27,811 nt of DNA from Kitasatospora phosalacinea (GTDB lineage Bacteria > Actinomycetota > Actinomycetes > Streptomycetales > Streptomycetaceae). Shown piece after piece: positions 1-27,760 of this stretch. The translations under genes and the position numbers were made by a program. The stretch spans positions 1-27,811 of the forward strand of contig NZ_JNYE01000114.1 in NCBI RefSeq assembly GCF_000717185.1, written 5' to 3'. The stretch's first letter is position 1. Each line of letters opens with the position of its first letter. The notes below the pieces were generated by a model, which ran no database searches, had not been told where the DNA came from, and saw only the letters and a program-made list of their open reading frames with translations.

Positions 1-24
1 CCCCCACCCCCCACCCCCACTTCC

Positions 25-50
25 GCGCCCCGAGCCGTCGGCCGGGGCGC
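25..50. terminator. Short GC-rich hairpin before GH3 gene
   Basis: A 7-bp perfect stem (25-31 with 44-50) encloses a 12-base loop just before the GH3 ribosome site. It could end transcription of a gene left of the window or be part of the leader. The first 20 bases are an almost pure C tract with A every six or so bases, and no gene is seen before position 73. Confidence 0.25.
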
Positions 51-72
51 CCTTCCGCCGACTGGAGCCGTC

Positions 73-3000
73 GTGCGCCGTCCTCACCTGCGAACCGCCC
101 TGGCCGGGCCACTCGCCGCCCTCCTGGTGGCCGGGGCCCTGGCCACCCTCGGCAGCCCGGCGGCACGGGCCGCCGACCAGCCGTGGACCAACGCCGCCCA
201 GACCCCCGAACAGCGCGCCGACGAACTGCTCGCCGCGATGACCCAGGCCGAGAAGCTGACCATGCTGCACGGCGGGCCGTCCTGCGGCTACGCGGGCTGC
301 ATCCCGGCCAACACCCGCCTCGGCATCCCCGCGCTGCACTTCCAGGACGGCCCGGTGGGCGCCGGGGACGGCCTGACCGGCGTGACCCAGCTCGCGGCCC
401 CGGTGGCCGGCGCGGCCAGCTGGGACCCGGAGCTGATGCGCGCGTACGGCCAGGTGCTCGGCGCCGAGCAGTGGGGCAAGGGCACCAACGTGGTCCTGGC
501 CCCGACCGTCAACATCGTCCGGGACCCGCGCTGGGGCCGGGCCTTCGAGTCGTTCGGCGAGGACCCGTACCTGGCCGGGCAGATCGGCGCCGCCGACATC
601 GCGGGCATCCAGAGCCAGGGCCCGATGGCGCAGGTGAAGCACTTCGCGGTCTACAACCAGGAGACCAACCGCAACACCCTCGCCGACAACGCGGTGGTCT
701 CCGACCGTGCCGAGCGGGAGATCTACCTGCCGGCCTTCGAGGCCGCCGTCCAGCAGGGCGTCGACTCCGCGATGTGCTCGTACTCGGCGGTCAACGGGGC
801 CTTCGCCTGCGAGAACGGGCCGCTGCTGAACGGCGTCCTCAAGGGCGACCTCGGCTTCAAGGGCTTCGTCACCGCGGACTGGGGCGCCACCCACTCCACC
901 GTCGCCTCGGCCAACAACGGCCTGGACGTGGAGATGCCGGGCAGCGACTACTACGGCACCGCGCTGACCAACGCCGTCAACGCCGGGCAGGTGTCGCAGG
1001 CGACGATCGACGACCACGTCCGCCGGGTGCTGGTGCCGATGTTCCGCCGCGGCCTGTTCGACCGGGCGCAGAACGGCAACCGGGACGCCGTCGTCACCAA
1101 CGCCGCGAACGCCGCCGTCGCGCAGAAGGTCGCGCAGGAGGGCAGCGTCCTGCTGAAGAACGACGCCGCGGTGCTGCCCGTGGCGCCGTCGGTGAAGTCG
1201 ATCGCGGTGATCGGCGACGACGCCGGGGCGGGCGTGATGACCCAGGGCGGCGGCAGCGCCGCCGTCAACGCCCCCCACGTGGTGACGCCCTACCAGGGCA
1301 TCAAGGCCCGCGCCGGGGCCGGGACGACGGTGACCTTCGCCCAGGGCGGCCCGTCCGCCGACGGCTCGCTGCCGCCGGTGCCCGCCAGCGCGCTCAAGCC
1401 GTCCGGCGGCACCGGCACCGGCCTGTACGGCGAGTACCACAACAGCACCGACCTGTCCGGCCCGGTCGTCGCGAGCCGGGTCGACGCGGGCATCGACACG
1501 GTCTGGGGCGGCCAGTCGCCCGCCGCCGGGGTCAACGCCACCAACTGGTCGGTGAAGTGGACCGGCACGCTGACCCCGCCCGCCAGCGGCAGCTACCAGT
1601 TCTCGCTGAACAGCGACGACGGCAGCCGCCTGCTCGTCAACGGCCAGCAGGTCATCAACAACTGGTACAACCAGGGCCCCACCACCCGCACCGGCAGCGT
1701 CACCCTGACGGCCGGCCAGCCGGTCAGCATCGAGGTCGACTACTACCAGGCCGGCGGCGGCAGCAACGCCACCCTCGGCTGGTCGGTGCCCGGCCAGAGC
1801 GCCCACGACCAGGCCGTCGCGGCCGCCCGCAGCTCCGAACTGGCGCTGGTCTTCGTCAGCGACTTCCAGTCCGAGGGCTCCGACCTGCGCGACATCGACC
1901 TGTCCGCCGCGCAGAACCAGCTCGTCGCGGACGTCGCCGCCGTCAACCCGCACACCGTCGTGGTGGTCAACAGCGGCTCCGCCGTCACCATGCCCTGGGC
2001 GGGCTCGGTGCAGGGCATCGTCGAGAACTGGTACCCCGGGCAGGAGGCGGGCACCGCGATCGCCGCGCTGCTCTACGGCGACGTCAACTTCTCCGGCAAG
2101 CTCCCCGTGACCTTCCCGAAGTCGCTCGCCGACGTGCCCGCCGCGAGCACCGCGCAGTGGCCCGGCCAGAACGGCAGCGTGCAGTACTCCGAAGGCGTCG
2201 ACGTCGGCTACCGCTGGTACGACGCCAAGAACAAGGAGCCGCTGTACCCCTTCGGCCACGGCCTCTCCTACACCACCTTCGGGTACTCCGGCCTGACCGT
2301 CTCCGCCCCCGACGCCGCGGGCAACGCGGCCGTCGGCTTCGACGTCACCAACACCGGCACCCGGGCCGGCTCCGAGGTCGCCCAGGTCTACGTCGGCCAG
2401 CCCGCTACCAGCGGCGAGCCGCCCAAGAACCTGCGCGCCTTCCAGAAGGTCGCCCTCGACCCCGGCCAGACCCGGCACGTCACCCTGACCCTGGACGCCC
2501 GCAGCTTCCAGTACTGGAACGGGAGTTGGACCACCGCGACCGGAACCCACACCGTCTCGGTCGGCTCCTCCTCCCGCGACCTGCGCCTGACCGCCCAGAC
2601 CACCGTCACCGGCGGCACGGGCGGCACGGGCGGCACCGGCGGCGGTCTGACCCTGCTGCCGCGCACGGGCTGGACGGCTTCGGCCTCCGCCACGGGTGGG
2701 GGTGACGTGGCGGCGAACATGCTGGACGGGGTGGCGGGTTCGCGCTGGTCGTCGGGTACGCCGATGGTGTCGGGCCAGTCGGTGACGGTGGACACGGGGG
2801 CGGTGCGGCCGCTGGCGCGGATCACCATGGACTCCGGTGGCAGCGCGAACGACTACGCCCGCGGCTACCAGGTGTTCCTGTCCACCGACGGCGCGTCGTG
2901 GGGTTCCGCGGTGGCGTCCGGCAGCGGTACGGGTGCGTTGGTGACGGTCGACTTCCCCGCCCGCAGCGCCCGCTACGTCAAGGTCGTCCAGACCGGTACG

Positions 3001-3325
3001 TCCAGTTCCTGGTGGTCGATCGCCGAGTTCAACGCCTACACCTCCGGCGGCGCGGTCAGCGTCCTGCCGCGCACGGGCTGGTCGGCTTCGGCCTCCGCCA
3101 CGGGCGGGAGCGACGTGGCGGCGAACATGTTGGACGGGGTGGCGGGTTCGCGCTGGTCGTCGGGCACGCCGATGGCGCCGGGCCAGTCGGTGACGGTGGA
3201 CACGGGCGCGGTGCGGCCGCTGGCGCGGAGACTTCCCGGCGCAGAGCGCCCGCTACGTCAAGGTCGTGCAGACCGGGACGTCCACCTCGTGGTGGTCGAT
3301 CGCCGAGTTCAACGCCTACGGCTGA
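73..3325 (+). CDS. Secreted GH3 beta-glucosidase-like enzyme with PA14 and F5/8 type C modules; frame broken near 3229
   Basis: Extracellular retaining glycoside hydrolase of family 3, cleaving beta-linked sugars from oligosaccharide ends. GTG start at 73 has GGAG seven bases upstream and opens a Sec signal peptide (about residues 1-33, ending AARA). The N-terminal barrel carries the KHF motif (Lys189-His190) and the nucleophile motif TADWG with Asp269. A PA14 domain (about 450-575) interrupts the C-terminal alpha/beta domain, and a fibronectin-III-like domain ends near 840. A Gly-Thr linker leads to an F5/8 type C module (857-990). A second copy starts at 997 but loses its core after residue 1052 (base 3228): relative to copy one, about 128 bp are missing, shifting the frame. 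The expected ending (EFNAYG, stop 3323-3325) lies in another frame. Read literally, the ORF runs on to 3972 as nonsense antisense to the neighbour. The catalytic part is intact, so activity is likely. The exact substrate is not readable from sequence; beta-glucosidase or beta-xylosidase are the usual activities. Confidence 0.88.
2653..3228 (+). repeat. Tandem F5/8 type C module DNA repeat
   Basis: Bases 2653-2820 and 3061-3228 encode the first part of two successive F5/8 (discoidin-like) carbohydrate-binding modules. They differ at only a handful of positions, so the DNA repeat is recent or kept similar by gene conversion. The second copy stops matching at 3229. Confidence 0.8.
3151..3228. 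repeat. 78-bp arm of perfect inverted repeat (partner 3877-3954)
   Basis: Reading 3954 down to 3877 on the minus strand gives exactly the same 78 bases as 3151-3228. Both encode the middle of an F5/8 module (RWSSGTPMAPGQ...RPLAR). The arms belong to two convergent genes and are about 650 bp apart. Both modules are structurally damaged at an edge of this arm. Confidence 0.85.
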
Positions 3326-3340
3326 GCCGGGCCGCCCGCT

Positions 3341-3387
3341 ACGTGACTCCGCCCGCGTCCGACACCCGGACGCGGGCGGAGTCACGT
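3341..3387. terminator. Strong bidirectional terminator hairpin after GH3
   Basis: Perfect 21-bp stem: 3341-3361 pairs with 3367-3387 around a 5-base loop (ACACC). It lies 15 bases after the expected GH3 stop at 3325 and has no T tract, as is usual in Streptomyces. It would also block transcription coming from the convergent GH76 gene. Confidence 0.8.
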
Positions 3388-3467
3388 CGGGGAGCCGCTC
3401 ACCGACGGATCCCCGGTCGGCCTGCGCGGGGACGCCCTGCCGGACGCGGCCGGGCAGGACCCTCGTC

Positions 3468-3523
3468 GGTCCGGGCGAGCGGTCCGGGCGAGCGGTTCGG
3501 CGTCCACGTCCGGCGTCCACGTC
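3468..3523. repeat. Two adjacent 13-bp tandem duplications
   Basis: A 13-mer starting GGTCCGGGCG occurs twice head to tail (3468-3480, 3481-3493). Four bases later a different 13-mer, CGGCGTCCACGTC, also occurs twice (3498-3510, 3511-3523). This stretch between the convergent GH3 and GH76 genes (3326-3651) otherwise holds only two hairpins and no gene. Confidence 0.7.
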
Positions 3524-3601
3524 CGGCAGGTTCCCGAGCCACCCGCACGGTGCACGGGCCACGATTCTGGCGCACACCCCTCGTCCGGACCGTCCCATGC
3601 G

Positions 3602-3634
3602 TCCGCCCGCGTCCGGGTGCCGGACGCGGGCGGA
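3602..3634. terminator. Second hairpin, same arm sequence as 3341-3387
   Basis: Perfect 14-bp stem: 3602-3615 pairs with 3621-3634. It lies 17 bases beyond the end of the GH76 reading on the minus strand, so it probably ends that transcript. Its arm (TCCGCCCGCGTCCG) is also contained in the arm of the hairpin at 3341-3387, so the two terminators are copies. Confidence 0.7.
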
Positions 3635-3876
3635 AACGTGTGCGGGGCGGCTCAGCTATAGGCGTTGAACTCGGTGATCGACCACCACGAGGTGGACGTC
3701 CCGGTCTGCACGACCTTGACGTAGCGGGCGCTGCGGGCGGGGAAGTCGACCGTCACCAACGCGCCCGTACCGCTGCCGGTCGCCACCGCGGAGCCCCACG
3801 ACGCGCCGTCGGTGGACAGGAACACCTGGTAGCCGCGGGCGTAGTCGTTCGCGCTGCCACCCGAGTCCATGGTGAT

Positions 3877-5334: not shown

Positions 5335-8300
5335 TCAGGCGGCGGGCAGGTTCCACTGCTGGGCCGGGGTGCCGTTGCAGTCGAAGAGCTGGAGCTGGAT
5401 CCCGTCGGCCGTACCGGAGTTGGGCACGTCCAGGCAGCGGCCGGACGGCGGGTTGCGCAGCGCCCTGGTGGTGGCGTCGTAGGCCCACTGCTGGCCGGTG
5501 CCGCCGTTGCAGTCCCACAGCACGACCGGGGTGTTGTTGCCGGTGCCGCTGCCGGACGCGGCCACGCAGCGCCCGAGGATCCGCAGGGTGCCGTCGCCGG
5601 GGACGGTGACCGACTGGGCGGGCGAGCCGTTGCAGCTCCACGACTGGATGCGGTTGCCGTTCGCGGTGGCGGCGGCGTTGTCGTCCAGGCACTTGCCGGC
5701 CAGCGCCGAGGGGGTGGCGCCGGTGCGGGCGCGCGGCAGCGTCCACTGCTGGGCGGGGGTGCCGTTGCAGTCGAAGATCTGGAGCTGGATGCCGTCCGCC
5801 GTACCGGAGTTCGGGATGTCCAGGCACTTGCCCGAGCCCGTGTTGACCAGGGCGCTCCCGCGCGGGATCCACTTCTGTCCGTCGCTCTGGTTGCAGTCCC
5901 ACAGCTGGACGGGGGCGCCGTCGGCGGTGGAGCCGCCGCTGACGTCCAGGCACTTGCCGGACTGCGTGACGCTGCCGTCGCCGGGGAGCGTCCAGCGCTG
6001 CGCGGCGGTGTTGTTGCAGCCGTAGGACTGCACCCGGGTGCCGTTGGAGGTGCCCCCGGCGGCCGCGTCCAGGCACTTGCCCGCGAGGCCGGAACCGATC
6101 GGACCGGTCGGGCCGACCTGGACCCGGGGCGGCCGGGCGTCGCCGTTGCCGCCGTAGGAGGGCGGTGCGGAGGACACGGCGGTGGCCCAGTTGGTGTTGG
6201 CGGTGGTGCCCAGGACGAGGTCGAGGGTGGCGCCGTTGATGACGGAGCCCGCGGGGAGGTAGGCGTTGTTCCAGCTGGCGCCGTTGAGGGTGGCGCTCTG
6301 GACGTAGGGGGCGCCGGTGGCGGCCTGCGGGGCGTTGACGACGAGCCTGCCGCCGCCCGCCAGGGTGACGGTGACGTTGGTGAACAGGGGCGAGCCGAGG
6401 GCGAGGTCGGCGGTGCCGGGTGTCTGGGGGTAGAAGCCCATCGCGGAGAAGACGTACCAGGCGCTCATCGTGCCGAGGTCGTCGTTGCCGACGCGCCAGT
6501 TCGCCGGGTCGTTGGGCCACAGCTGGTTCTGGACGTCGCGCACGGTCTTCTGGGTCTTCCAGGGCCGGCCGATGTAGTCGTACTCCCAGGGGAGTTCGAT
6601 GGAGGGCTCGTTGCCGAGGTCGGCGTGCGAGCCGCCGGAGCCGTGGAAGTCGGCCAGGACGGCGTCCAGGTAGGCGGCGAGCTTCGCGTTGCCGCCCATC
6701 GCGTCGGCGAGTCCGCGGACGTTGTGCGGGACGGCGCCGGTGTACTGCCAGGAGGTGCCCTCGACGAACTGGTCGCTGCTGGTGGGGTCGAAGCCGTCGC
6801 GCCAGGTGCCGTCCTTGAGCTTGGGCTGCATGAAGCCGGAGGCGGGGTTGAACACGTTGCGCCAGTCCTGGGCCCGGTTGGCGAACTGGTCGCGGACGGC
6901 GGTGTCGCCGAGCGCTCCGGCGAACGCGGAGACGGCGAAGTCCTGGGCTGCGTACTCCAGCTGGGTGGCCACCGAGCCGTAGAACCCGGGCGCGTACGTG
7001 CCGTCGGACGGCAGGTAGCCGTAGTTGGACTGGTAGTCGAGCCCCAGCCGGATGCCGTTGCCCGCCGACCCCTGCCGCACCATCGCGTCCTTGGCCGCGG
7101 CGGTGTCGAAGTCCCGTGCGCCGAAGGCGTAGTAGTCCGCGATGACGGCCGGTGCGGGGTCGCCGTTCATGACGTTGGTCTCGGCCGAGTTCAGCGACCA
7201 CTTCGGCAGCTGACCGCTCTGCGCGAAGTCGTTGACCAGCGACTGCGCGCTGTCACTGGCCTGCTGCGGGGCGACCAGTGCCTCCAACTGCGCCTGGGTG
7301 CGGTAGATGTCCCAGCCGGAGTAGGTGCCGTACTGGGCCTGCTGCCGACCGCTGACGGTGTGCACCCTGCGGTCGAAGCCCCAGTACTTCCCGTCGCTGT
7401 CGCTGAGCAGGTTCGGGTGCAGCAGTGCGTGGTAGAGCGCGGTGTAGAACACCTTCTGCTGGTCCGCGGTGCCGCCGGTGACGGCGATCCTGCCCAGGAC
7501 GGCGTTCCAGGCGTCGTGGTTGGCGGTGCGGACGGCGTTGAAGTCCCAGTTCGGGTTCTCCGCGGTCCGGTTGGCGGTGGCACCGGCGATGGAGACGTAG
7601 GACAGGCCGACCTTCGCCTGCACGGTGCGGTTGCCCGTGGTGTCGAAGGTGACCGAGTTCCCGCCGTCGAACGTGCCGGTGGAGGTGATCGGCCGGTCGA
7701 AGACCATGTCGAAGTAGGCGGTGTACGAGGGCGCCGAGGCGCAGAACAGGCCGGCGTCCACCGAGCCGCTGACCTCGGTGCTGCTGACCTTGGTGAAGTG
7801 CAGGTTGGTGGCCTTGTCCGCGCTCAGCTTGAACAGCAGGTTGGCCCGGGTGGTGGCGGGGAACGTGAAGCGCGCCATGCCGGAACGGGCGGTCGTGGTC
7901 AGCTCGGTGGTGACGCCGTTGTCCAGGGTCACGGAGTAGGCGCCCGCGCTCGCGGACTCCCTCGCGTGCGAGAAGCCGACCGTCGCGCCGCCGTCGACGG
8001 CGCCGGTGGTCGGCAGGACGGGTACGTCCCCCATTGCCCCGCACCCGGGCCCGGACAGGTGGTTCAGGCTGAACCCGGTGATGGTGTTGTCGGTGTAGGC
8101 GTAGTCGCCGCCCGGCGGCCGGGTCGGGGTGTCGGGGCTCCACTGCACCATGCCGAACGGCGAGTCGGCGCCGGGGAAGGTGTTGCCCTCGTGCGACGTC
8201 CCGAGCAGCGGGTTGACCAGTGAGGCGGGATCGGACACCGCGGCGGCCGCCGCTGCGGGCGCCGCCTGGGCGGGCGCGGGAACGGCGAGTCCGAGGACCA

Positions 8301-8337
8301 CGAGACAGGCGGCCAGGGGGAGGCGCCAGCGTTTCAT
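5335..8337 (-). CDS. Secreted GH92 exo-alpha-mannosidase with six ricin-type lectin repeats
   Basis: GH92 enzymes are calcium-dependent inverting exo-alpha-mannosidases (mostly alpha-1,2) that trim mannan and N-glycan side chains. The chosen ATG at 8337 has GGAGGGG six bases upstream and begins a clear signal peptide ([16 protein letters not shown]..., cut near AQA). The open frame extends 12 codons further upstream without support. Family signatures are [20 protein letters not shown] near the N-terminus, [16 protein letters not shown], and [12 protein letters not shown] with GFYPQTPG. About the last 250 residues form two ricin B-type (CBM13) domains of three repeats each, with W motifs AQRW, GQKW, AQQW, a degenerate AQSV, GQQW and AQQW. 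The third and sixth repeats are almost identical. Length is 1,000 residues. It precedes GH76 on the same strand, consistent with joint mannan breakdown. Confidence 0.93.
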
Positions 8338-8413
8338 CGTTGCCCCTCCAGAAGGGAACAGACGGGGTGTCACCGAACCGGCGGAGGCTCGGTGCGGTAA
8401 GCAAAGAGGACCC

Positions 8414-8427
8414 TGGCAACGTTGTCA
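8414..8427. promoter_or_regulatory. LacI-type operator candidate upstream of GH92
   Basis: TGGCAACGTTGTCA is a 14-bp near-palindrome (one mismatched pair) centred on CG, the usual form of LacI-family operators. It lies 77 bp before the GH92 start codon, a sensible place for a sugar-responsive repressor. No LacI-family gene is in the window. The rest of 8338-8710 shows no gene. Confidence 0.5.
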
Positions 8428-8710
8428 ACGACTGGGACCGAATCGGCCCTTGGGTTCAAGCCCTGTAGCCAAGGCGGCGCCCGCGCCCCCGCGGCCTCCC
8501 CGGACGCCTCCCCGGTAGGCTCTCGCCCAACTGGTCAACCGGCCTGTCCAGCACACTTCCTGATGCTGCGTCGATTCCGGGTGAAGTGATCCTGTGAATG
8601 ATTGCCCCGGAGGAATCCGCAGAAACCGGGACCCCCTGACTACACCGACTTCAAGCCCTGACAGCACCCGCGAGAGGGCTCAGGAGCCTGCGCGGCGGGC
8701 GGGAGCCCGG

Positions 8711-8948
8711 TCAGGACGGGAGCGGCACCGCCGCGGCGGCGAGGCGTTCGTAGGCGCGGCGGACCTCCGGCACCAGCCGGGCGGCGGCCTCCGGGTCGGC
8801 GTGCTCGGTGGCGAGCCGCAGGATGTTCCCGCTGCGCCGGTCCGCGGGGACGTCCTCGCCGCGGGGGGTGACGAGGACGTGGAAGTGCGGGTGGTTCTCG
8901 CCGAAGACCATCAGGTACGTCGCGGGCGCGCCGGTCGCCTCGGCCACC
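8711..8948 (-). pseudogene. C-terminal remnant of a HIT-family protein
   Basis: The minus-strand translation ends with a clear HIT signature, GENHPHFHVLVTPR (His-x-His-x-His), followed by a helical tail and a stop at 8711. HIT proteins are nucleotide hydrolases or transferases of about 130-170 residues. Here only about the last 80 residues are recognisable. Upstream of roughly 8948 the same frame stays open to 9148, but its codon use degrades and no HIT N-terminal half is seen. Instead the opposite strand has the better codon pattern. I read this as a truncated gene left by a rearrangement. An annotation pipeline may call 8711-9148 as one 145-residue ORF. Confidence 0.6.
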
Positions 8949-9170
8949 ACCGGACCGCCCACCTGGCCGCGGCCCCCGGCAACTGCTGCGCGGACGGCTG
9001 CCGGGCCGCCACGGATCGCACCGAACTCCCGCTCCCCGACGGAGGGTTGCGCTTCGGCGAGTTCAACGACCACTCCGGACGCCCCGAGTTGACCACCCGA
9101 CCCGCCGACGCGCGCTACCCGCCGCGGCGACTCGTCCGCTCGCGGCACGCGGTGACGCTCCGCCGGGCCT
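8949..9170 (+). pseudogene. Unassigned coding-like fragment, plus strand
   Basis: In one plus-strand frame from about 8949 to 9170 nearly every codon ends in G or C. It translates to a natural-looking peptide (AAAPGNCCADGCRAATD, LPDGGLRFGEFNDHSGRPEL, DARYPPRRLVRSRH). No start codon with a ribosome site and no natural stop go with it: the frame runs into the antisense of the next gene and stops at 9286. I do not recognise the family. It abuts the HIT remnant head-on, suggesting both are debris of one rearrangement. Confidence 0.3.
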
Positions 9171-9185
9171 CCGCGGTCGCCCGGC

Positions 9186-10478
9186 TCACTGCCCCCGGGC
9201 CGCCCGGGCCACCCGCCGGGTCTTCGCCCAGTCCCGCCGCCCCCGGAGGATCCGCCACAGCGCCCGCCAGGTCGCCAGGTAGGTGACGTACGTCAGCAGG
9301 TACGAGGCGTGGTGCAGCCCGACCGAGCGCCACCAGCCGTAGTGCCGGGTGCGCCGGTGGTACAGCGTGGCCTGGTACAGGTGCGGCGCGAACGCCAGCA
9401 GGTACACCGCCACCGCCGTCGCCACGGCCGCCGCCGCCCCGCTGTGCGCGCCCACCGCGAGCGTCGCCAGCACGCCCAGCACCGCCAGCAGGTGCGCCAG
9501 CACCGACCAGGGCAGCGCCAGGCACCACGGCTGCAGCAGGTACAGCGCCAGCTCCAGCGCGGCCGCCGTGCCCAGCCGCGAACTGCGCCACACCTCGCCC
9601 AGCCGCCCGGCGCAGACCATGTGCCCCTGCGCCCAGCGGGTGCGCTGGCGCAGCAGCGCCCGCAGGCGCTCCGGGCCCTCCTGGACGACGTGCGCCAGGC
9701 TGGTGGTGCGCAGCCGCCAGCCCCGCACGGCCAGCGACAGCGCCAGGTCGAGGTCCTCGGTCAGCGAGTCCGTCCACGGCGCGCCGGGCACCGAGCGCAG
9801 CGCCGACAGCCGGGCGAACTGGGCGTTGCCGCCCAGACTGACCGTGCCGAACGGGTCGCGCCCGTACTGCGCGGTCGCGGCGGCGCCCCAGAACCCGGCG
9901 TCCTGGATCCGGGTCAGCAGCCTGTCCCGGTTGCGGATCCGGACGGCCAACTGCGCGCCGCCCACCGCCGGGTCGGCGAACAGCGGCGCGACGTGCGCCA
10001 GCGCGCCGGGGCTCAGCCGCCCGTCCGCGTCCATCACCGCCACCACCACCCGCTCCTCCGGCACGCCCAGCCGCTCCGCCGCCGCCACCAGGTGCGGCAG
10101 CGCCGCGTTCAGCGCCGCGCCCTTGCCCTGCCGGGCCTGCGGCAGCCGCCGCGACAGCACCTCGACCCGGTCGCCGCCCGCCGCCCGGGCCCGCTCGGCG
10201 GTGGCGTCGGCGGACCCGTCGTCGACCACCGTCACCCGGGCCCGGGCGTCCTGCGCCAGCAGGTTGGCCACCGTCGCGCCGATCACCGCCTCCTCGTCCA
10301 GGCAGGGCACCAGGAACCAGAACACCAACTCCCCGTCCTCCGGCGCCGGTCGGCTGCCCTGCCGCTGCTCGGCCCGGACGCGCAGCCGCCCGGAGAACTG
10401 CAGCACCAGGAAGTAGGTGAGCCCGTAGCCCAGCACCAGCAGGACGAACGTGGTCAGTGGACCGACGGGCAGGTTCAC
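9186..10478 (-). CDS. Membrane processive GT2 glycosyltransferase (QxxRW type)
   Basis: Polymerising glycosyltransferase of the cellulose/chitin/hyaluronan/poly-GlcNAc synthase class, building a beta-linked polysaccharide at the cytoplasmic membrane. GTG at 10478 has GGAGG upstream. Features in order: an N-terminal membrane helix (about 8-27), Asp86-Asp87 in VVDDGS, Asp150-x-Asp152 in MDADG, catalytic-base motif TED (242), the QRTRW motif (Gln278 to Trp282) typical of processive enzymes, then C-terminal membrane helices and a basic tail. Length is 430 residues. Its start overlaps the stop of the small gene before it (GTGA), and that gene overlaps the UDP-GlcNAc 2-epimerase gene in the same way. 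UDP-GlcNAc or UDP-ManNAc is therefore an inferred donor. The open frame extends in phase upstream to 10838, but codon use there belongs to another frame. Confidence 0.88.
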   Translation of the reverse strand: MNLPVGPLTTFVLLVLGYGLTYFLVLQFSGRLRVRAEQRQGSRPAPEDGELVFWFLVPCLDEEAVIGATVANLLAQDARARVTVVDDGSADATAERARAAGGDRVEVLSRRLPQARQGKGAALNAALPHLVAAAERLGVPEERVVVAVMDADGRLSPGALAHVAPLFADPAVGGAQLAVRIRNRDRLLTRIQDAGFWGAAATAQYGRDPFGTVSLGGNAQFARLSALRSVPGAPWTDSLTEDLDLALSLAVRGWRLRTTSLAHVVQEGPERLRALLRQRTRWAQGHMVCAGRLGEVWRSSRLGTAAALELALYLLQPWCLALPWSVLAHLLAVLGVLATLAVGAHSGAAAAVATAVAVYLLAFAPHLYQATLYHRRTRHYGWWRSVGLHHASYLLTYVTYLATWRALWRILRGRRDWAKTRRVARAARGQ

Positions 10479-20358: not shown

Positions 20359-21084
20359 TCACTGCCGCCAGGTGTCGGCGGTGGTGAAGGTGCCGGTGGG
20401 CGGAGTGGTGGCGGTGCGGTCGGCGCCGCCCTCCCACGCCACGCTGCCGTCCGGGTTCCTGATCAGGTACTTGTACGCGACCGGGGTGTTGGGCGGCAGC
20501 TGCAGCCCGGCGCCCCAGGTCGGGTAGCCGCCGGAGCCGGTGGTCAGCGGGACGGCCGCGGCCGGGTTCCAGCCGCCGAGTTCGGCCAGGTTGCCGACCA
20601 GGTAGACGTTCTGCCCGTAGGCGGTGGTGGCGGTGACGCGGAAGCTCGCGGCGACCGGCGCGCCGCTGCCGACGTTCCAGCGGTCGTCGATCGCGGTGAT
20701 CGCCGTCGTCGAGTGGGTGACCGAGCGGTTGGGGACGCTCTCCCAGGTCACGACCCCGGTGCTGCTGCGGATCAGGAACTTGTACTCCGCGGTGCTGCCC
20801 TCGATGATCTGCACGTACCCGGTCCAGGACGGGTAGGTCTGCGCGGTGGTGTGCAGCGGGACGGCCGCGGCCGGGTTCCAGTTGCCCAGCTGCGCGGTGT
20901 TCCCGCTGATCAGGACGGTGTCGCCCGGGTTGGTCACGGCGGAGACCGTGACCGATATGGTCGCCTCGGCGGTGGCCGCGCCGGCCGGGGCGGCGACGCC
21001 GAGCAGCCCGGTCAGCAGGGCGGCCACGAGCAGGAGCGGACGCCACCAGGCGGTGGCCGTGGTGCGGGGCGGTGCGGTGGTCAT
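20359..21084 (-). CDS. Secreted protein of two tandem CBM20 starch-binding modules, no enzyme domain
   Basis: A 241-residue exported protein. The signal peptide ends near residue 36 (APAGAA). Two CBM20 modules follow, about 41-135 and 143-241. Each shows the family pattern: VLISGNTAQLGNWNPAAAVPL and YLVGNLAELGGWNPAAAVPL, then a WxxxxxL/V strand, EYKFLIRSSTGVVTWE or AYKYLIRNPDGSVAWE, and a final NR or DR with a W. These bind starch or related alpha-glucans. No catalytic domain or anchor is present, so it acts as a free binding protein. ATG at 21084 has only a weak GGAAG site. Two inverted repeats lie in the 280-bp upstream region. A truncated amylase is the alternative, but the clean stop and strong terminator argue against that. 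Confidence 0.9.
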   Translation of the reverse strand: MTTAPPRTTATAWWRPLLLVAALLTGLLGVAAPAGAATAEATISVTVSAVTNPGDTVLISGNTAQLGNWNPAAAVPLHTTAQTYPSWTGYVQIIEGSTAEYKFLIRSSTGVVTWESVPNRSVTHSTTAITAIDDRWNVGSGAPVAASFRVTATTAYGQNVYLVGNLAELGGWNPAAAVPLTTGSGGYPTWGAGLQLPPNTPVAYKYLIRNPDGSVAWEGGADRTATTPPTGTFTTADTWRQ

Positions 21085-21364: not shown

Positions 21365-22012
21365 TCAAGCCGGAGCGTCGGAGACCAGGTGGCCCCACCA
21401 GACCAGGCGGTACAGGGAGGTGAACTCGGGGGTGCAGGTGGTCAGGGTGAGGTAGTGGCCGGGGGAGGTGTAGCCGGCCTGGGCGGGGACGGGGTCGAGC
21501 ACCTCGTAGTTGTCGGCGCCGGTCTCCGGCAGCTCGCGGTCCAGGGCGTAGGTGTAGACGGCCGCGGGGGTGCGCAGCACGACCAGGTCGCCGGGCTCCA
21601 GCCGGTCCAGGTGGCGGAACGGCTCGCCGTGGCCGTTGCGGTGCGCGGCCAGGCCCAGGTTGCCCTGCTCGCCGGGGAGTTGGGTGTCCTCGTAGTGCCC
21701 GACGGCGCCGGAGTCGAGGACGGTGCCGCGGTCGACGCCCTCGCGGACGGTGAACGTCGCGGGCAGGCCGAGCTGTTCGAGCCGGGGGACGGTCAGCGTG
21801 CCGAGCTCCGCCCCGGGCGCGGGGGCCGCGGGCGCGCCGGGAGCAGCGGGGGCGGGCGGTGCGGCGACGGCGGCGGGCGGCGGCGCCGGGGGCCCGTACG
21901 CGGGGGTGACGGCGACCGTGCACAGCAGGGCTCCCGCCGCGAGGGCGCCCGCGGCGGCCCGCAGGGGGCCCCGCGGGCGCGGGCGTCGGGCGGCGCGCAG
22001 CGCGGTGCTCAT
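21365..22012 (-). CDS. Class E sortase
   Basis: Membrane transpeptidase that attaches surface proteins to the cell wall. Class E enzymes of high-GC actinomycetes usually recognise LAxTG. Residues 15-38 form a membrane anchor, followed by a Pro/Ala-rich stalk (40-68) and the beta-barrel. The catalytic triad is visible: His124 in LAAHRNGHGEPF, Cys193 in LTLTTCTPEF (TLxTC motif) and Arg202 in SLYRLVWWG. Length 215 is normal. Its ATG overlaps the TGA of the upstream glycosyltransferase (ATGA), making it the last gene of the envelope operon. No LAxTG substrate was found among the proteins of this window. Confidence 0.92.
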   Translation of the reverse strand: MSTALRAARRPRPRGPLRAAAGALAAGALLCTVAVTPAYGPPAPPPAAVAAPPAPAAPGAPAAPAPGAELGTLTVPRLEQLGLPATFTVREGVDRGTVLDSGAVGHYEDTQLPGEQGNLGLAAHRNGHGEPFRHLDRLEPGDLVVLRTPAAVYTYALDRELPETGADNYEVLDPVPAQAGYTSPGHYLTLTTCTPEFTSLYRLVWWGHLVSDAPA

Positions 22013-25000
22013 CCGCGGGCCCCGCGGCGGTGCGCGCCCGGCAGCGGGGCGGTCAGCAGGGCGGCGCCCGCGGCGGCGAACTCGCAGGTCTTGAGCAGCA
22101 GCAGACCGGCCGTCAGCAGCGGGTCGCGGCTGAGCCGCCAGGCGCGGGCGGCCAGCACCGGCAGCCGCCAGGGTCCGGCCTGGGCGGCGAAGTGGCGCGG
22201 GTGGCGGGCGGCGTAGCGTCCGGCGGTGGCCGCGTAGTGGGCCTTCTTGCGCATCGCGGCGCGCAGCGTGGTGCGTCCCTCGTCGTGGACCAGGACGCTG
22301 CGGGTGGTGGCGATCCGGGCGCCGGCGGCCCGCACCCGCAGGTCGAGGTCCTTGTCCTCGGACCAGACCAGTCCCTCGTCGTGGCCGCCGACCCGGTCGT
22401 ACAGCTCGCGGCGCAGGCAGCGCAGCGACTCCACCGAGCGGTCGCCGTCCCAGCAGCGCTTCTCCAGCACCTTGCAGCGCGACCAGAAGCCCTCGCCGAC
22501 CGAGACCTCGGGGATGACCAGGGCGTCGTAGCCCTCGTCCTCGATCAGGCGGCGGCACTCGGCGAGCAGGCCCGGCCCGGCGGTCATGTCGGAGTCCAGG
22601 TGCAGGACGACGGCGGCGCTGGTGAGCCGGACGCCGCGGCGGCGCCCGGCGGCGCGGGACGGGTTGTCGCGGGCCAGCCGGACGTCCAGGCCGCGGGCGT
22701 GGAAGGCGGGCAGCGCGGGGGCGAGCGGGCGGCTGGTCCGCGCGTCCTCGTTGACCAGCACCTCCAGGCCCTCGCGCTGCTGCACCAGCGAGTCGAGCAG
22801 CCGCCCGACCTGCGGGACGCTGTCCCGGGTGGGGACGACCACGGCGATCCGCGGCGCGGCCGGGGCGGGCCGGGCGGAGGGGGCGGACGGGGCGGCGGAC
22901 ATCGGCGGCCTCACGGGTTCCAGGGGGCGGGGGTCGGGGGAGGTACGGCGGCGGGGCAGCAGGACGGTGGCGCAGGCCAGCACGGTCGCGGCGGACAGCC
23001 CGACGGCCGCCCGCCACCAGCGGTCGGGCCCGAACGCGACGCGCAGCTCGGCGTCGCCGCGCCCGTCGACCAGCCAGGCCGCCCGGTAGCCGTCCAGGGT
23101 CAGCGGGCGGGCGCTCCACCCGGCGGGCAGGCCGGTGAGCTCCCAGCGCGGGTCGGCGGAGTCCGGCAGCGTCACGACGGCCGGGCCGTCCACGCCGCTC
23201 AGCCGGGCCCGGTAGCGCCCGGCGCCGTCCGGCACGGCGGCCACGGCGGGGGTGGCGAAGGCCGCCGGGTCGATCCGGACGGCCAGCGGCAGCACGGGCG
23301 TCAGCCGCACGCCGGTGTACTCGACCGCCGTGGTGCCGACGTCGTCGCCGTCGGCGTACAGGTACAGCGCCAGGTCGCGGACGTCGGCGGGCGGGGTGAC
23401 CACCGTGTCCAGGGTGTGCCACTGCGGGCCGTCGACGGTCCGCGGCAGCTCGGCGCACCGGTCCGGGCCGCCCTGCCACAGGCACAGCCGGGCCGGACTG
23501 CCGCTGACCGTACGGTAGTTGACGGACAGCCGGTAGCTGCCGGGCCGGTGGCCGGTGCCCGGCTCGAAGGCGTCGACGGGGGCGCGGACGCAGGCGGTGT
23601 GGGCGCGGGCGGTGAGCCGGACGCCGTCGGTGCCGAGCGGGGTCGCGGACAGCCCGGCCTCGGCGAATCCGCGCCCGTCGGTGCGGCCGCAGTCCTGCAG
23701 CGCGCTGAACGCGGGCGGCCCGGCGGCGGGCAGGCCCGGGTCGGCGTCGACCCGGTGCGGGCCGGGTCCGAGCGGCAGCGGCGCGTCCCCGGCGGCGGCG
23801 GTGGCCTCGGCGGCGACGCCCAGCGCGGTGGCGGCCGGGGCCCGGTAGGCGGCGTCGCCCGGACGGGTGCCGTCCGCGTCGGCGTACCCGTACAGCACGG
23901 CGCCGGTGGTGCCGGGGGCCAGCCGCAGCACGGTGCGGAAGGTCTGCCAGTCGGCGGCGGCGGGCAGGCGGCGCTCGACCGCGCAGCCGTTCGGGCCGTC
24001 CTGCCACAGGCAGATCCGCGGCGCGCTTCCCCGGTACTCGACCGCGACCGCGACCAGCCCGTCGGCGGGCGGGTCGGCCAGCGGCAGGCGGACGCAGGCG
24101 GTGCCCTGCTCGGCGCGCAGCACCCAACTGCCGTCCCCCGCACGGTCGGTGGCGCCGCCGCAGCCGCCGTCGGCCTGCGCGTCCGGGTCGGCCGTCAGCT
24201 CGGGCCCGTCGGCGAGGGCGACCGCGACCCGGTCGCCCGGGCGGACGGCGACCGGGCGGCCGGGCTGCCAGGGCAGCACCTCCGGGCCGACCAGCAGCGC
24301 GGCCGGCGTCGCCTCCGCGGGCAGGTCGAGCCGCAGCTCGGGCGCCGCCGGGACGGGCACGCCGTCCACCGCGGCCCGCCCGGCGTCGGCCAGCCGCACC
24401 CCCTCCGCGGTGCGGGAGGGCAGGTAGGCGGCGCCCGCGCCGCGCTCGACCCGGGCCGCGTACGGGCCGCCGTCCGCGCGCAGCCGCACCTCGGCGCCGC
24501 CCGCGGCGGTGAACGCCAGCCGGGCCGCGTCCACCGGCACCGCCGGGTCGACGGTGGTGGCGGCGCCGCGGGCGGCGGCCGCGGCGGTGGTCCGCGGATC
24601 GGCCGCCGGGTCGAGCAGCAGACCGGCCGGTGCGCCCGCGGGGGACGGGAGTTCGTACAGGTCGGCGACCGGGGTGGCCAGGGTGCGGCGGGCCCCCGGC
24701 AGCCGGTCCAGGGCGGCGGCGAGGACGGCCGGGTCGGCGGTGGCGGCGTCGCCCGCCGTGGTGCGCAGGTCCCGGCGGACCAGCACCTGGCCGACGCCCA
24801 GCGCCCGCAGCGCGCCCGCCGCGGCGTCCGCGTCCCCGGCGGCGAGGCCGTCCTCGGCCAGGGCGAGCAGCCGGGCCGGGCCGGAGGCGTTGTCGAAGTA
24901 GCCGCCCGGCAGCCGCTGCAGCAGCGGCCGGGTCAGCAGGTTGCGCGGCAGGTCGTCCACGCCGTGGAAACCCCAGTCGGTCAGCACCTGGTAGTAGCCC

Positions 25001-26460
25001 TGCAACGGCAGCTCCAGCACCTTCCCGGGCACGGCCGAGCCGTTCGCCGCGTCCGCGACCCGCTGCCACTGCGCCGGGACGGCCACCGACGCCGAGGGCA
25101 GCGGCGGCCGCACCCAGGTCACCACCGCGCCCGTCCACAGCGGCCACGGGTACGCCAGCGCGGCCGCCACCGCGACGGCGGCCGCCACCCGGGGGGCCTT
25201 CCGCCCGGCGTCCAGGGCGCGCTGCACCGCCGCGCCCGCCAGCACCGCCACCACCAGCACCAGCAGCACGCCGAACTTGCTCATCGGCTCGCGGAACAGC
25301 CACATCCCCGGCAGGTGCGCGTACAGCCACGCGTTCACCGCCGCCAGCGGCGGGTGCAGCCCCTTGCACAGCAGCACCAGGACGCCCGTCGCCACCGCCA
25401 GCGCCCGCATCGCCCACCGGGTCCGGCGCGGCCCCGGCGGCAGCACCGCCCCCGCCAGTGCCAGCAGCGCCGGAACCCAGCGCGCCGCCCCCCACGGCGC
25501 CCGGTCCACCGCCGCCGCGAACGGGTAGTACTCGGCGTGCGACCAGCCCCAATGCGCGTTCAGCGCAAGGATGTTGGGCAGGGTGTTGCGCACCTGCGTC
25601 CACGCCCACGCCTGCACGTTGGTCTGCGCGCTGAAGTCCGTCCCCGAACCCCCACCGGTCAGCGTCACCGCCTGCGGCACCAGCCACCACAGCTGCACCA
25701 GCACCAGCAGCGGCAGCGCCCGCCCGACCAGCCCCAGCACCGGCCGCCACCGCCCGCCGGTCAGCGGCGCCGCGACCAGCGCCACCGCGGCCGTCGCCCC
25801 CGCCACCACCGCCAGCAGCGGCGGATTCATCCCCAGGTAGCACAGCGGCAGCGCACTCAGCACCACCGTCCGCACCCGCACCCGCAGCCCCGCCGCCGCC
25901 CGCAGCAGGTGCCCGCCGAACCACGCCACCAGCGCCGTCGCCAGCACCGGCAGCGGATTGAGCAACGACACCAGCGTGTACACGTTCACCACCGCCAGCA
26001 GCCCCGCGCACGCCGCCGCCAGCGGATGCCGCAACCACACCGACGCCAGCCGCGCCACCCCCGTCGCCGCCCCCGCCAGCACCAGCCCGTACAGCACCGC
26101 CTGCGCCACCCCCGGCCCCAGCCCGACCAGGCCGCACAGCCGGACCAGCAGCAGGTCCGGCAGCCGGACGATCTCGTACGAGGGCCCGCCCGTCCCGGTG
26201 ATCTGGTGCCCCCACACGCTCCCCAGCTCCGCCCCCAGCGCCTCCCGCCGGAACGGCCCCACGTCCCCCGTCGCGAAGTCCCGCCCGGGCCGGAACCACA
26301 GCAGTGGCAGCAGTGCCGCGAGGGTTCCGGGCAGGGCGTAGCGGGTGAGTGGGTCGTGGTGGCGGTGGGTGAGGCGGCGCAGGGTGCGCAGGAGGCCGTG
26401 GAGGGAGGTGGGTGCGGTGGCGGCGGTGACGCGGCGGGGGGTGGGGACGGTGGTGGTCAC
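22009..26460 (-). CDS. AftD-like GT-C arabinofuranosyltransferase fused to a GT2 glycosyltransferase
   Basis: A 1,483-residue membrane protein. The first 550 residues hold many membrane helices in the GT-C arrangement of the alpha-(1->3)-arabinofuranosyltransferase family (AftD, DUF3367), with motifs such as LVSLLNPLPV, GTDFSAQTNVQAWAW, LALNAHWGWSHAEYYPF and FREPMSKFG. A large extracytoplasmic part has two related beta-sandwich units (APRICLWQDGPNGCAVE and PARLCLWQGGPDRCAEL), probably glycan-binding. A last helix (AVGLSAATVLACATVLL) ends near 1165. From about residue 1187 (Met, base 22902) a complete GT2 domain follows: VVVPTRDS, LHLDSDM, WSEDKDLDLRV. No stop separates the parts. A modest ribosome site (GAGG) precedes that internal ATG, so separate translation is possible. 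GTG at 26460 overlaps the previous stop (GTGA). It probably transfers sugars from polyprenyl carriers to an envelope glycan; the product is unknown. Confidence 0.85.
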   Translation of the reverse strand: MTTTVPTPRRVTAATAPTSLHGLLRTLRRLTHRHHDPLTRYALPGTLAALLPLLWFRPGRDFATGDVGPFRREALGAELGSVWGHQITGTGGPSYEIVRLPDLLLVRLCGLVGLGPGVAQAVLYGLVLAGAATGVARLASVWLRHPLAAACAGLLAVVNVYTLVSLLNPLPVLATALVAWFGGHLLRAAAGLRVRVRTVVLSALPLCYLGMNPPLLAVVAGATAAVALVAAPLTGGRWRPVLGLVGRALPLLVLVQLWWLVPQAVTLTGGGSGTDFSAQTNVQAWAWTQVRNTLPNILALNAHWGWSHAEYYPFAAAVDRAPWGAARWVPALLALAGAVLPPGPRRTRWAMRALAVATGVLVLLCKGLHPPLAAVNAWLYAHLPGMWLFREPMSKFGVLLVLVVAVLAGAAVQRALDAGRKAPRVAAAVAVAAALAYPWPLWTGAVVTWVRPPLPSASVAVPAQWQRVADAANGSAVPGKVLELPLQGYYQVLTDWGFHGVDDLPRNLLTRPLLQRLPGGYFDNASGPARLLALAEDGLAAGDADAAAGALRALGVGQVLVRRDLRTTAGDAATADPAVLAAALDRLPGARRTLATPVADLYELPSPAGAPAGLLLDPAADPRTTAAAAARGAATTVDPAVPVDAARLAFTAAGGAEVRLRADGGPYAARVERGAGAAYLPSRTAEGVRLADAGRAAVDGVPVPAAPELRLDLPAEATPAALLVGPEVLPWQPGRPVAVRPGDRVAVALADGPELTADPDAQADGGCGGATDRAGDGSWVLRAEQGTACVRLPLADPPADGLVAVAVEYRGSAPRICLWQDGPNGCAVERRLPAAADWQTFRTVLRLAPGTTGAVLYGYADADGTRPGDAAYRAPAATALGVAAEATAAAGDAPLPLGPGPHRVDADPGLPAAGPPAFSALQDCGRTDGRGFAEAGLSATPLGTDGVRLTARAHTACVRAPVDAFEPGTGHRPGSYRLSVNYRTVSGSPARLCLWQGGPDRCAELPRTVDGPQWHTLDTVVTPPADVRDLALYLYADGDDVGTTAVEYTGVRLTPVLPLAVRIDPAAFATPAVAAVPDGAGRYRARLSGVDGPAVVTLPDSADPRWELTGLPAGWSARPLTLDGYRAAWLVDGRGDAELRVAFGPDRWWRAAVGLSAATVLACATVLLPRRRTSPDPRPLEPVRPPMSAAPSAPSARPAPAAPRIAVVVPTRDSVPQVGRLLDSLVQQREGLEVLVNEDARTSRPLAPALPAFHARGLDVRLARDNPSRAAGRRRGVRLTSAAVVLHLDSDMTAGPGLLAECRRLIEDEGYDALVIPEVSVGEGFWSRCKVLEKRCWDGDRSVESLRCLRRELYDRVGGHDEGLVWSEDKDLDLRVRAAGARIATTRSVLVHDEGRTTLRAAMRKKAHYAATAGRYAARHPRHFAAQAGPWRLPVLAARAWRLSRDPLLTAGLLLLKTCEFAAAGAALLTAPLPGAHRRGARG

Positions 26461-26670
26461 TGCGGGGCACCGCCGGGGGTGAGGGTGGGGTGGGTGGGCC
26501 GGAACCACAGCAGTGGCAGCAGCGCCGCGAGGGCTCCCGGCAGGGCGTAGCGGATGAGCGGGTCGCGGTGGGTGAGGGTGCGCAGGAGGCCGTGGAGGGA
26601 GGTGGGTGCGACGGTGGCGGCGGGGCGGCGGGGGGTGGGGACGGTGGTGGTCACTGGGCGGCACCGCCGG
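26288..26670. repeat. Imperfect tandem duplication of the AftD-like gene start
   Basis: Segment 26288-26476 (start of the AftD-like gene) and segment 26497-26670 (the 65-aa ORF) are closely similar, including the GTGA junction, the upstream CCGGCGGTGCC and the GGAACCACAGCAGTGGCAGC stretch. They differ by substitutions and a few in-frame insertions in the THRHHDP region. Confidence 0.75.
26457..26654 (-). CDS. 65-aa ORF duplicating the N-terminus of the AftD-like protein
   Basis: The peptide VTTTVPTPRRPAATVAPTSL...DPLIRYALPGALAALLPLLW is nearly the same as the first 60 residues of the next gene (VTTTVPTPRRVTAATAPTSL...DPLTRYALPGTLAALLPLLW). It then ends with THPTLTPGGAPQ. It contains one hydrophobic helix. 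Both ends are 4-base GTGA overlaps: with the GT4 stop before it and the AftD-like start after it, so a ribosome could pass through all three genes. It arose by a tandem duplication of the gene's 5' end. Whether it is a functional membrane peptide or a passive relic is unknown. Confidence 0.65.
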   Translation of the reverse strand: MTTTVPTPRRPAATVAPTSLHGLLRTLTHRDPLIRYALPGALAALLPLLWFRPTHPTLTPGGAPQ

Positions 26671-27760
26671 AGACGGCGTGGGCGTGCAGCGGGGGGAGTC
26701 CGGCGGCCGCGACGGCCGTGCGCAGGACGGCCTCCGCGACCTCGTCCCAGGGCAGCGCCCCGCCCCGCCAGCCGGTGGGGGACGGGGCGGCGGCCAGGGC
26801 GGGCAGTTGTTCGGCGAGGGCCCGGGCCAGGGCCCCCGGGTTCGGGGCCACCAGGCGACCGCCTGCCGCCGGGACGGAGTCGCACAGGCCCGGGCGCCGG
26901 TAGCCGATCGTCGGGGTGCCCATCGCCGCGGCCTCGTCCACCACCAGCGCCCAGCCCTCCCGGATCGAGGTCGCCACCAACACGTGGGCCCGGGCCAGCA
27001 GTTCGTCCCGCCGCGCGGTCGGCACCCGCCCGTGGAACACCGTCCCCGGCGGTGCCAGCCGCTCCAGCCGGGCCCGCTCCGGCCCGTCCCCGACGATCCA
27101 CAGCCGGGCCTGCGGCATCCGGCGGCGCAGCAGCGCGAACGCCGCCAGCACGTGGTCCACCTGCTTCACCGGCGACAGCCGCCCCAGGAACGCCACCGTC
27201 GGCACCTGCTCCCGCGCCACCTGCGGCCGCGCCCGCCGGGTGTGCCCCTCCGGCACCAGGTGCAGGTCGCGCAGCCCGTACGCGCGCAGCGACTCCCGGC
27301 TGGACGGCGAGACGGTCAGCACCGGCGTCCCGCGCAGCGAGCGCAGCCAGAGCGGCTCGGCCACGTACCGGCCCAGCCAGGACAGCGGCGGCGGGAACCG
27401 GGCGTCCCAGATCTCCCGCGCGACCTGGTGCACCAGCGCGACGGTCGGCGTCCCCGCCGACCAGGCCGCGCAGCCGAACGGGCGGGTGTTCACCTCGTCC
27501 ACCAGCAGGTCGAACCGTCCCGTCCCGTGCGAGGCGTACCACTGCCGGGCGGCCCGGTACACCCCCAGCGGGCCGCCGCCGCGCACGATCCGCACGCCCT
27601 CCCGCGACTCCCGGCCGGGGGCGCCGGGCGCGGCCGCGGTCACCAGCGTGACCCGGTGCCCGGCCGCGGCCCACCGGGTGACCACCTCGTGGGTGTACAC
27701 CTCGGCGCCTCCGGCCTCGGGGTGGGCGGTGTCCTTCCAGTTGAAGACGCAGATGCGCAT
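26651..27760 (-). CDS. GT4-family glycosyltransferase
   Basis: Cytoplasmic or membrane-associated GT-B transferase using a nucleotide sugar, 369 residues. The N-terminal domain starts MRICVFNWKDTAHPEAGGAEVYTHEV, typical of GT4 (Gly-rich acceptor loop). The C-terminal domain has TVAFLGRLSPVKQVDHVLAA, LWIVGDGPERARLE, FHGRVP and the EX7E motif in REGWALVVDEAAAMGTP. ATG at 27760 is supported by homology-like N-terminal residues, while the ribosome site (CGAGG) is modest. It is the first gene of the operon visible here and its stop overlaps the next start (GTGA). Genes further upstream may lie outside the window. Donor and acceptor cannot be told. Confidence 0.92.
   Translation of the reverse strand: MRICVFNWKDTAHPEAGGAEVYTHEVVTRWAAAGHRVTLVTAAAPGAPGRESREGVRIVRGGGPLGVYRAARQWYASHGTGRFDLLVDEVNTRPFGCAAWSAGTPTVALVHQVAREIWDARFPPPLSWLGRYVAEPLWLRSLRGTPVLTVSPSSRESLRAYGLRDLHLVPEGHTRRARPQVAREQVPTVAFLGRLSPVKQVDHVLAAFALLRRRMPQARLWIVGDGPERARLERLAPPGTVFHGRVPTARRDELLARAHVLVATSIREGWALVVDEAAAMGTPTIGYRRPGLCDSVPAAGGRLVAPNPGALARALAEQLPALAAAPSPTGWRGGALPWDEVAEAVLRTAVAAAGLPPLHAHAVSGGAAQ

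Follow-up and report, generated by a model that had tools for sequence, protein, structure and literature searches.

The window analysed here, the entire contig C114 (27,811 nucleotides) of an 8.6 Mb Kitasatospora phosalacinea genome, carries a gene in which a membrane glycosyltransferase of the GT-C class and a glycosyltransferase of family 2 (GT2) share one uninterrupted frame (Table 1). We give about even weight to the reading that a self-contained cassette for extracytoplasmic glycosylation has the fused protein as its transferase end and probably decorates an immunoglobulin-like (Ig-like) surface protein. The cassette is a more interesting object than the fusion. Its core comprises an Ig-like protein with a sorting signal, a flippase-synthase, a glycosyltransferase of family 4 (GT4), the GT2 and the GT-C, sometimes with an FkbM methyltransferase and, in the Kitasatospora group, with a sortase. 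The cassette is seen in several actinobacterial groups and probably sugar-coats a protein anchored at the cell surface.

The components were counted in 21 loci that contain the GT-C gene: 17 from a search with a single peptide pattern, which gives a lower bound, the three loci L046-L048, and the window. The weakly matching L049 and L058-L066 were excluded. A flippase-like and/or DPM-like domain is present in 17 loci, GT4 in 17, GT2 in 15, an Ig-like protein in 11, FkbM in five and a class E sortase in four; the window, L012 and L047 supplied some of the queries, so these three match by construction. The flippase-like and synthase domains share one open frame in seven loci and are separate genes in L004. 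In the genome of the window itself the flippase-synthase gene is cut short by the end of another contig, C106 (from 2212 down), where the genes for the Ig-like protein and a divergent FkbM adjoin it; its product is 84-92% identical to the L047 counterpart. The Ig-like proteins have a leader-like start, a C-terminal hydrophobic stretch and a basic end. Class E sortases cut LAxTG, and LPxTG or LAxTG is visible in the Ig-like protein of eight of the 11 loci and of the window's own genome, with a looser xxxTG in L012 and L014.

The domain joined to the flippase resembles enzymes that charge polyprenyl phosphate. A profile of this flippase-linked GT2 (alignment A5, 12 of the 13 loci with a DPM match, L016 being left out) matched DPM synthase at 5e-22 (positions 6-233 of 263), GtrB at 9e-22 and the undecaprenyl-phosphate formamido-arabinose transferase (ArnC-type) at 2e-18. 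In NCBIfam PpgS came first, all matches being far below cut-off. The flippase model PF13440 is passed in L012 (40.6 bits, cut-off 23), P0029 and P0030, the latter two being among the proteins (P numbers) returned by database searches, and the L012 flippase is matched by L048 at 9e-12 and by L046 at 7e-6.

The GT2 half of the fused protein appears to be of a different type. An earlier note on this stretch had described it as a cytoplasmic-type GT2 domain, and this is borne out: it passes the Pfam cut-offs of PF13641 (36.6 bits, cut-off 27) and PF00535 (30.3 bits, cut-off 23.3), and its model has a predicted local distance difference test score (pLDDT) of 86.2. Residues D103, D105, E182-D183 and K219-K220, with the DxD and ED motifs, are invariant in all 14 rows of alignment A4, whose numbering is used here and which holds 14 of the 15 loci with a GT2 (L006, cut by a contig end, is omitted). 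Because these residues are invariant, the enzyme looks active. Its profile matched chondroitin synthase best (1.4e-24), and DPM synthase at 8.6e-10 over positions 6-109 only. Foldseek placed the model near TarS, PcManGT (an archaeal membrane enzyme, rank 2), TarP and RmlT, with GtrB at rank 46. The VIA search returned WrtF, AvpGT and TarS; neither DPM synthase nor GtrB is among the 50 VIA matches listed, which excludes nothing.

These comparisons bear on a second proposal of the earlier note, that one protein both makes and uses a lipid-linked sugar. The GT2 tail would make a polyprenyl-phosphate sugar, which the GT-C half of the same chain would use outside. The intact motifs, the single C-terminal hydrophobic helix, the fusion to a GT-C, the partial DPM synthase match and the Foldseek ranks of PcManGT and GtrB are all consistent with this proposal. 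However, the same cassette contains a DPM/GtrB-like synthase joined to a flippase-like domain, and the sequences and folds closest to the window's GT2 include TarS, RmlT, WrtF and chondroitin synthase, enzymes that transfer to glycan acceptors (activities as generally known or as given in entry titles). The proposal is therefore considered unlikely. The flippase-linked synthase appears the likelier maker of the lipid-linked sugar, and the window's GT2 is the weaker candidate because the flippase-linked GT2 and the GT-C fit the plan of the three-component systems discussed below. Sequence and model lean towards sugar transfer by the window's GT2 to a glycan acceptor, in preference to charging of polyprenyl phosphate.

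The GT-C half has the fold of AftD, an enzyme known from mycobacterial arabinan. AftD is the closest solved fold, the model follows it from the first to the last transmembrane helix, and a 24-sequence profile found AftD (6w98/6wbx) in the PDB at about 1e-8; phmmer with the whole fused protein gave no match in the PDB. Gly65-Asp66, after the first long helix, is nearly invariant (alignment A3). The membrane core is followed by two sandwich domains that are 36% identical (E 4e-16, chosen segments compared), the first of which resembles polysaccharide-binding modules in structure comparison. Fold matches, sandwich similarity and model thus agree with the AftD-like GT-C with two lectin-like sandwiches that had been read from the sequence. 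Arginines follow the last hydrophobic helix and, by the positive-inside rule, would put the GT2 in the cytoplasm.

The likeness to AftD raises the question of whether the fused protein is a true arabinofuranosyltransferase that adds arabinose. The fold and the profile match to 6w98/6wbx speak for it, but PF11847 (GT-C_AftD) does not match the window protein at E up to 1 and matches only three of 31 family members (A3) at 0.01; P0008 scores 42.2 bits (cut-off 26). No match to Emb (PF04602) or PF11847 was found in the window's own genome, the latter as expected for a model that misses the window's protein itself; the genes for decaprenyl-phosphoryl-arabinose were not searched. Among 14 control genomes these searches were positive in Corynebacterium glutamicum alone. 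A DPM-like synthase would also suggest a hexose-type donor. Because Emb and PF11847 were not found while the positive control worked, arabinan is unlikely as the product, and we regard arabinose transfer by the fused protein as quite improbable.

In the favoured scheme, the flippase-like domain joined to the DPM/GtrB-like GT2 would make a polyprenyl-phosphate sugar and turn it outward, where the AftD-like GT-C would transfer it to an acceptor held by the two sandwich domains. On the inner face the GT4 and the window's cytoplasmic GT2 would draw on nucleotide sugars to assemble or lengthen the acceptor glycan, which the FkbM methyltransferase may cap. The protein decorated in the end would most likely be the small, secreted Ig-like one that the cassette encodes; in Kitasatospora-group strains the class E sortase would anchor it to the wall.

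Several observations weigh against such a scheme. No Ig-like protein was found in ten of the 21 loci (one is the window, whose copy lies on C106, and some are short contigs); L009, L010, L013 and L015 have long flanks without one, so the Ig-like protein may be a passenger. No sorting motif can be seen in the L011 protein, a Pfam cut-off is reached by the L012 protein alone (PF17936 Big_6), and NCBIfam matches stay below cut-off. A sortase is nearby only in the Kitasatospora group (four of 21 loci); in six loci no GT2 was found, and in two it is encoded on the opposite strand. PF13440 gives no match at 0.001 to the proteins of L047 and L015, nor does L047 match the L012 flippase at 1e-5. The profile of the flippase-linked GT2 also matches chondroitin synthase (3.6e-21, over a shorter stretch), and one such sequence matches GalT1 slightly better than GtrB.

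Alternatively, the cassette could make a cell-wall or exported glycopolymer that the Ig-like protein merely binds or anchors. Mycobacterial arabinosyltransferases act on polymers, according to the excerpt cited (PMC12041299), the first sandwich resembles polysaccharide-binding modules, and a GT4 plus a GT2 can build a repeat. However, 23 chosen flanking genes outside the core included none recognisable as a polymerase, LCP ligase, phosphoglycosyltransferase or sugar-nucleotide gene, not all flanking genes having been scanned; those recognised were a second GT4, a methyltransferase, a GNAT protein, an NlpC/P60 protein and unrelated genes. At least six of the 23 have no Pfam match, and a polymerase could hide there. 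A glycopolymer product is considered doubtful, and glycosylation of the Ig-like protein is preferred.

The fusion itself is genuine, as the earlier note had first proposed. P0001-P0004, all named Kitasatospora, are fused at the identical junction, and the nearest database relative of the fused protein is a K. phosalacinea entry with 95% identity. An error of sequencing or assembly might be suspected, given that the assembly has 340 contigs and that the sister strain L048 keeps two frames, but this explanation is refuted because the junction is shared by four other Kitasatospora proteins, and we give it almost no credence. A DNA search across the junction matched 21 of 21 same-genus genomes; nearly all matches were short and GC-rich, and only those in the window's own genome and G010 were taken as convincing.

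In L048 the GT2 is a separate gene with a possible ATG at 7094 behind GGAGG, in a frame that differs from that of the GT-C. The GT-C frame continues beyond this start to 6961, and the two genes overlap. Orthologues split at 22902 with a stop upstream, the condition under which the fusion was to be doubted, are thus only partly found: the four Kitasatospora orthologues are fused, and the GT2 of L048 is a gene of its own in a different frame. The suggestion that a stop had been lost fared worse. L047 lacks the out-of-frame TGA at 22913-22911, and no stop occurs there in the L048 GT-C frame, so this TGA is unlikely to have been the ancestral GT-C stop. An old gene boundary near 22902 is upheld, since GAGG and ATG there match the L048 start with its GGAGG. 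By eye, in protein alignment A1, the P0007 tail looks like P0005's out-of-frame tail, suggesting that the same overlap exists there. With a separate GT2 in the sister strain and outside the Kitasatospora group, the C-terminal fusion looks derived. In one Kitasatospora clade a frame change would have merged the overlapping GT-C and GT2 genes and kept the GT2 start.

The start in question is GAGG-N6-ATG at 22912-22900, with the same spacing in L046 and L047. In the window's fused frame codon 1184, within this site, is the sole AGG; across the three genes counted, AGG makes up 1 of 199 arginine codons. In L047 one of two AGG codons sits in this Shine-Dalgarno-like site; in L046 the site has the only AGG in the stretch from 8530 on, another AGG being present in the earlier segment. 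Frames are shifted in the L046 GT-C and GT4 genes (9257-8530 and near 11320), perhaps through sequencing errors, and P0004 is similarly disturbed. GAGG and the ATG at 22902 are probably the old GT2 start, retained in the three fused genes for which there is DNA (window, L046 and L047). Such retention would allow a second product, and the fused gene may yield free GT2 as well as the fusion. Compared with L047, the window differs at 175 of 968 four-fold sites and has the identical codon at 103 of 131 shared arginine positions, so AGG and ATG may persist through descent alone. Because this divergence is too low to prove selection on the internal start, retention and not selection is claimed. More tentatively still, we propose a previously undescribed actinobacterial cassette that uses an AftD-like GT-C to glycosylate one dedicated Ig-like sortase-anchored protein and whose fused gene, in one Kitasatospora clade, has two products: a full-length chain that links the glycan-building cytoplasmic GT2 through the membrane with the transferase on the outer face, and a free GT2 from the internal start.

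Gene order is partly conserved. In nine loci the GT2 is a separate gene that lies upstream of the GT-C gene in the same orientation, in two it is on the opposite strand, in one (L048) it is a separate downstream gene with an overlap, and in three it is fused C-terminally. It was not found in six (L003, L004, L008, L010, L016 and L019), five of which are contigs of 4-12 kb, while L010 has 10 kb on each side. Beyond the Kitasatospora group the GT2 is separate in 11 loci (upstream in nine, other strand in two) or fused at the N-terminus, as in ten proteins; in 60 proteins from two database searches the GT2 lies behind the GT-C in four and before it in ten. P0028 and P0030, both very long, are single chains made up of flippase, DPM-like GT2, GT4 and AftD-like GT-C, and P0029, also very long, joins flippase and GT-C. 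In L004, from a Dactylosporangium metagenome-assembled genome, GT-C copies at 1-3642 and 6746-10324 flank the Ig-like, synthase and GT4 genes. P0045 and P0046 have the same GT2 type ahead of a different family, PF09852, which we take to be the membrane family DUF2079, possibly a parallel fusion.

A 35-row tree was built from 24 of the 60 proteins, 10 of the 17 peptide-pattern loci and the window, leaving out partial, repeated, distant and shifted sequences. P0004, its frame disturbed within the GT-C, was left out of the tree and of alignments A2 and A3. The C-terminal fusion forms one clade (100/100). Five changes are required for the N-terminal fusion label, of which well-supported branches force at least four; three of the five could reflect a single gain with two losses, and for 11 rows the GT2 state is not known. 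In these data the C-terminal fusion is confined to one Kitasatospora clade and is one of several fusions among the same neighbours. The GT-C core was found in four of 61 same-genus genomes, in six of 100 relatives and in at least seven of 396 genomes of the phylum, a lower bound from a single query sequence with five candidates scored per genome. The hosts of the loci are Streptomycetaceae-type strains, Micromonosporaceae, Acidimicrobiia and other Actinomycetota. Within the reach of the searches made, the family appears rare and patchy.

The neighbours of the fused gene are closely packed. The ATG of the sortase gene overlaps the TGA of the fused gene (ATGA). On the other side, a 65-amino-acid frame, its start overlapping the GT4 stop and its stop overlapping the GT-C start, is a partial tandem copy that covers the GT-C N-terminus and first hydrophobic stretch. 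In L047 the gap between GT4 and GT-C is occupied by an unrelated small frame with three repeats (HAPRAARQLA), and in L046 the two genes overlap directly. Further along the window, 20359-21084 encodes a 241-amino-acid protein with two CBM20 starch-binding stretches, no further Pfam domain and, by eye, a leader-like start.

Table 1. Features of the fused gene and its neighbours in the window.
Feature	Position	Strand	Remarks
Fused GT-C::GT2 gene	22009..26460	-	GTG 26460 to TGA 22009; 1483 amino acids; fused orthologues P0001-P0004
GT-C transmembrane core, about residues 34-606	24643..26361	-	model m1a0588d9a728; AftD and PglB matches
First jelly-roll carbohydrate-binding-like domain, residues 752-881	23818..24207	-	
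Second sandwich, about residues 938-1079	23224..23649	-	sequence similarity to first; strands in model
Last GT-C hydrophobic helix, residues 1145-1167, then arginines	22960..23028	-	sequence and model
GAGG Shine-Dalgarno-like site inside fused frame	22909..22912	-	also in L046, L047; GGAGG in L048
GT2 module, probable ancestral ATG to end, one C-terminal hydrophobic helix	22012..22902	-	A4; model
Class E sortase, downstream of fused gene	21365..22012	-	NF033747 170.6 bits (cut-off 160), PF04203
Partial tandem copy of GT-C gene start	26457..26654	-	168/188 aligned bases identical
GT4 glycosyltransferase, upstream of fused gene	26651..27760	-	PF00534 3.7e-25, PF13692 7.8e-25

An AftD fold that occurs in a genome without detected Emb, in the company of a flippase-like sugar-lipid synthase and a sorting-signal protein, suggests a role for this fold in surface glycosylation of a wider kind. 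Fusions at both ends of the GT-C, together with the pathway-wide chains P0028 and P0030, show which parts work together, and donor and acceptor become testable in a non-pathogenic soil actinomycete. Searches of open-licence PMC papers showed no title or abstract start describing such a cassette; one paper listed, PMC6998099, concerns a sortase-bearing Streptomyces genome.

Finally, the cassette can be compared with known systems. The fold of AftD of mycobacteria (PDB 6W98, 6WBX, 6WBY; PF11847) is common to the GT-C of the window, with 17% identity in the alignment to it; unlike AftD, the window protein has a GT2 tail, no PF11847 match, different neighbour genes and a genome without detected Emb. 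TarS, RmlT, WrtF and chondroitin synthase are about 13-20% identical to the window's GT2 in structural alignments and, to our knowledge, are not fused to a GT-C. Pmt belongs to another GT-C family and serves many proteins. In the Ppm1/Pmt protein O-mannosylation of Streptomyces a lipid-linked sugar is likewise used outside the membrane on proteins, and the excerpt cited describes no such cassette (PMC5882110). In three-component systems, of the Gtr type and the GT136 type of Citrobacter, a polyprenyl-phosphate-sugar synthase, a flippase and a GT-C with a carbohydrate-binding module are encoded together, according to the excerpt cited (PMC11127046). The cassette would follow a comparable logic, but its synthase is DPM/GtrB-like and joined to a flippase-like domain, its GT-C is AftD-like, and it adds a GT4, a GT2, sometimes an FkbM, an Ig-like protein that bears a sorting signal and, in Kitasatospora-group loci, a sortase.

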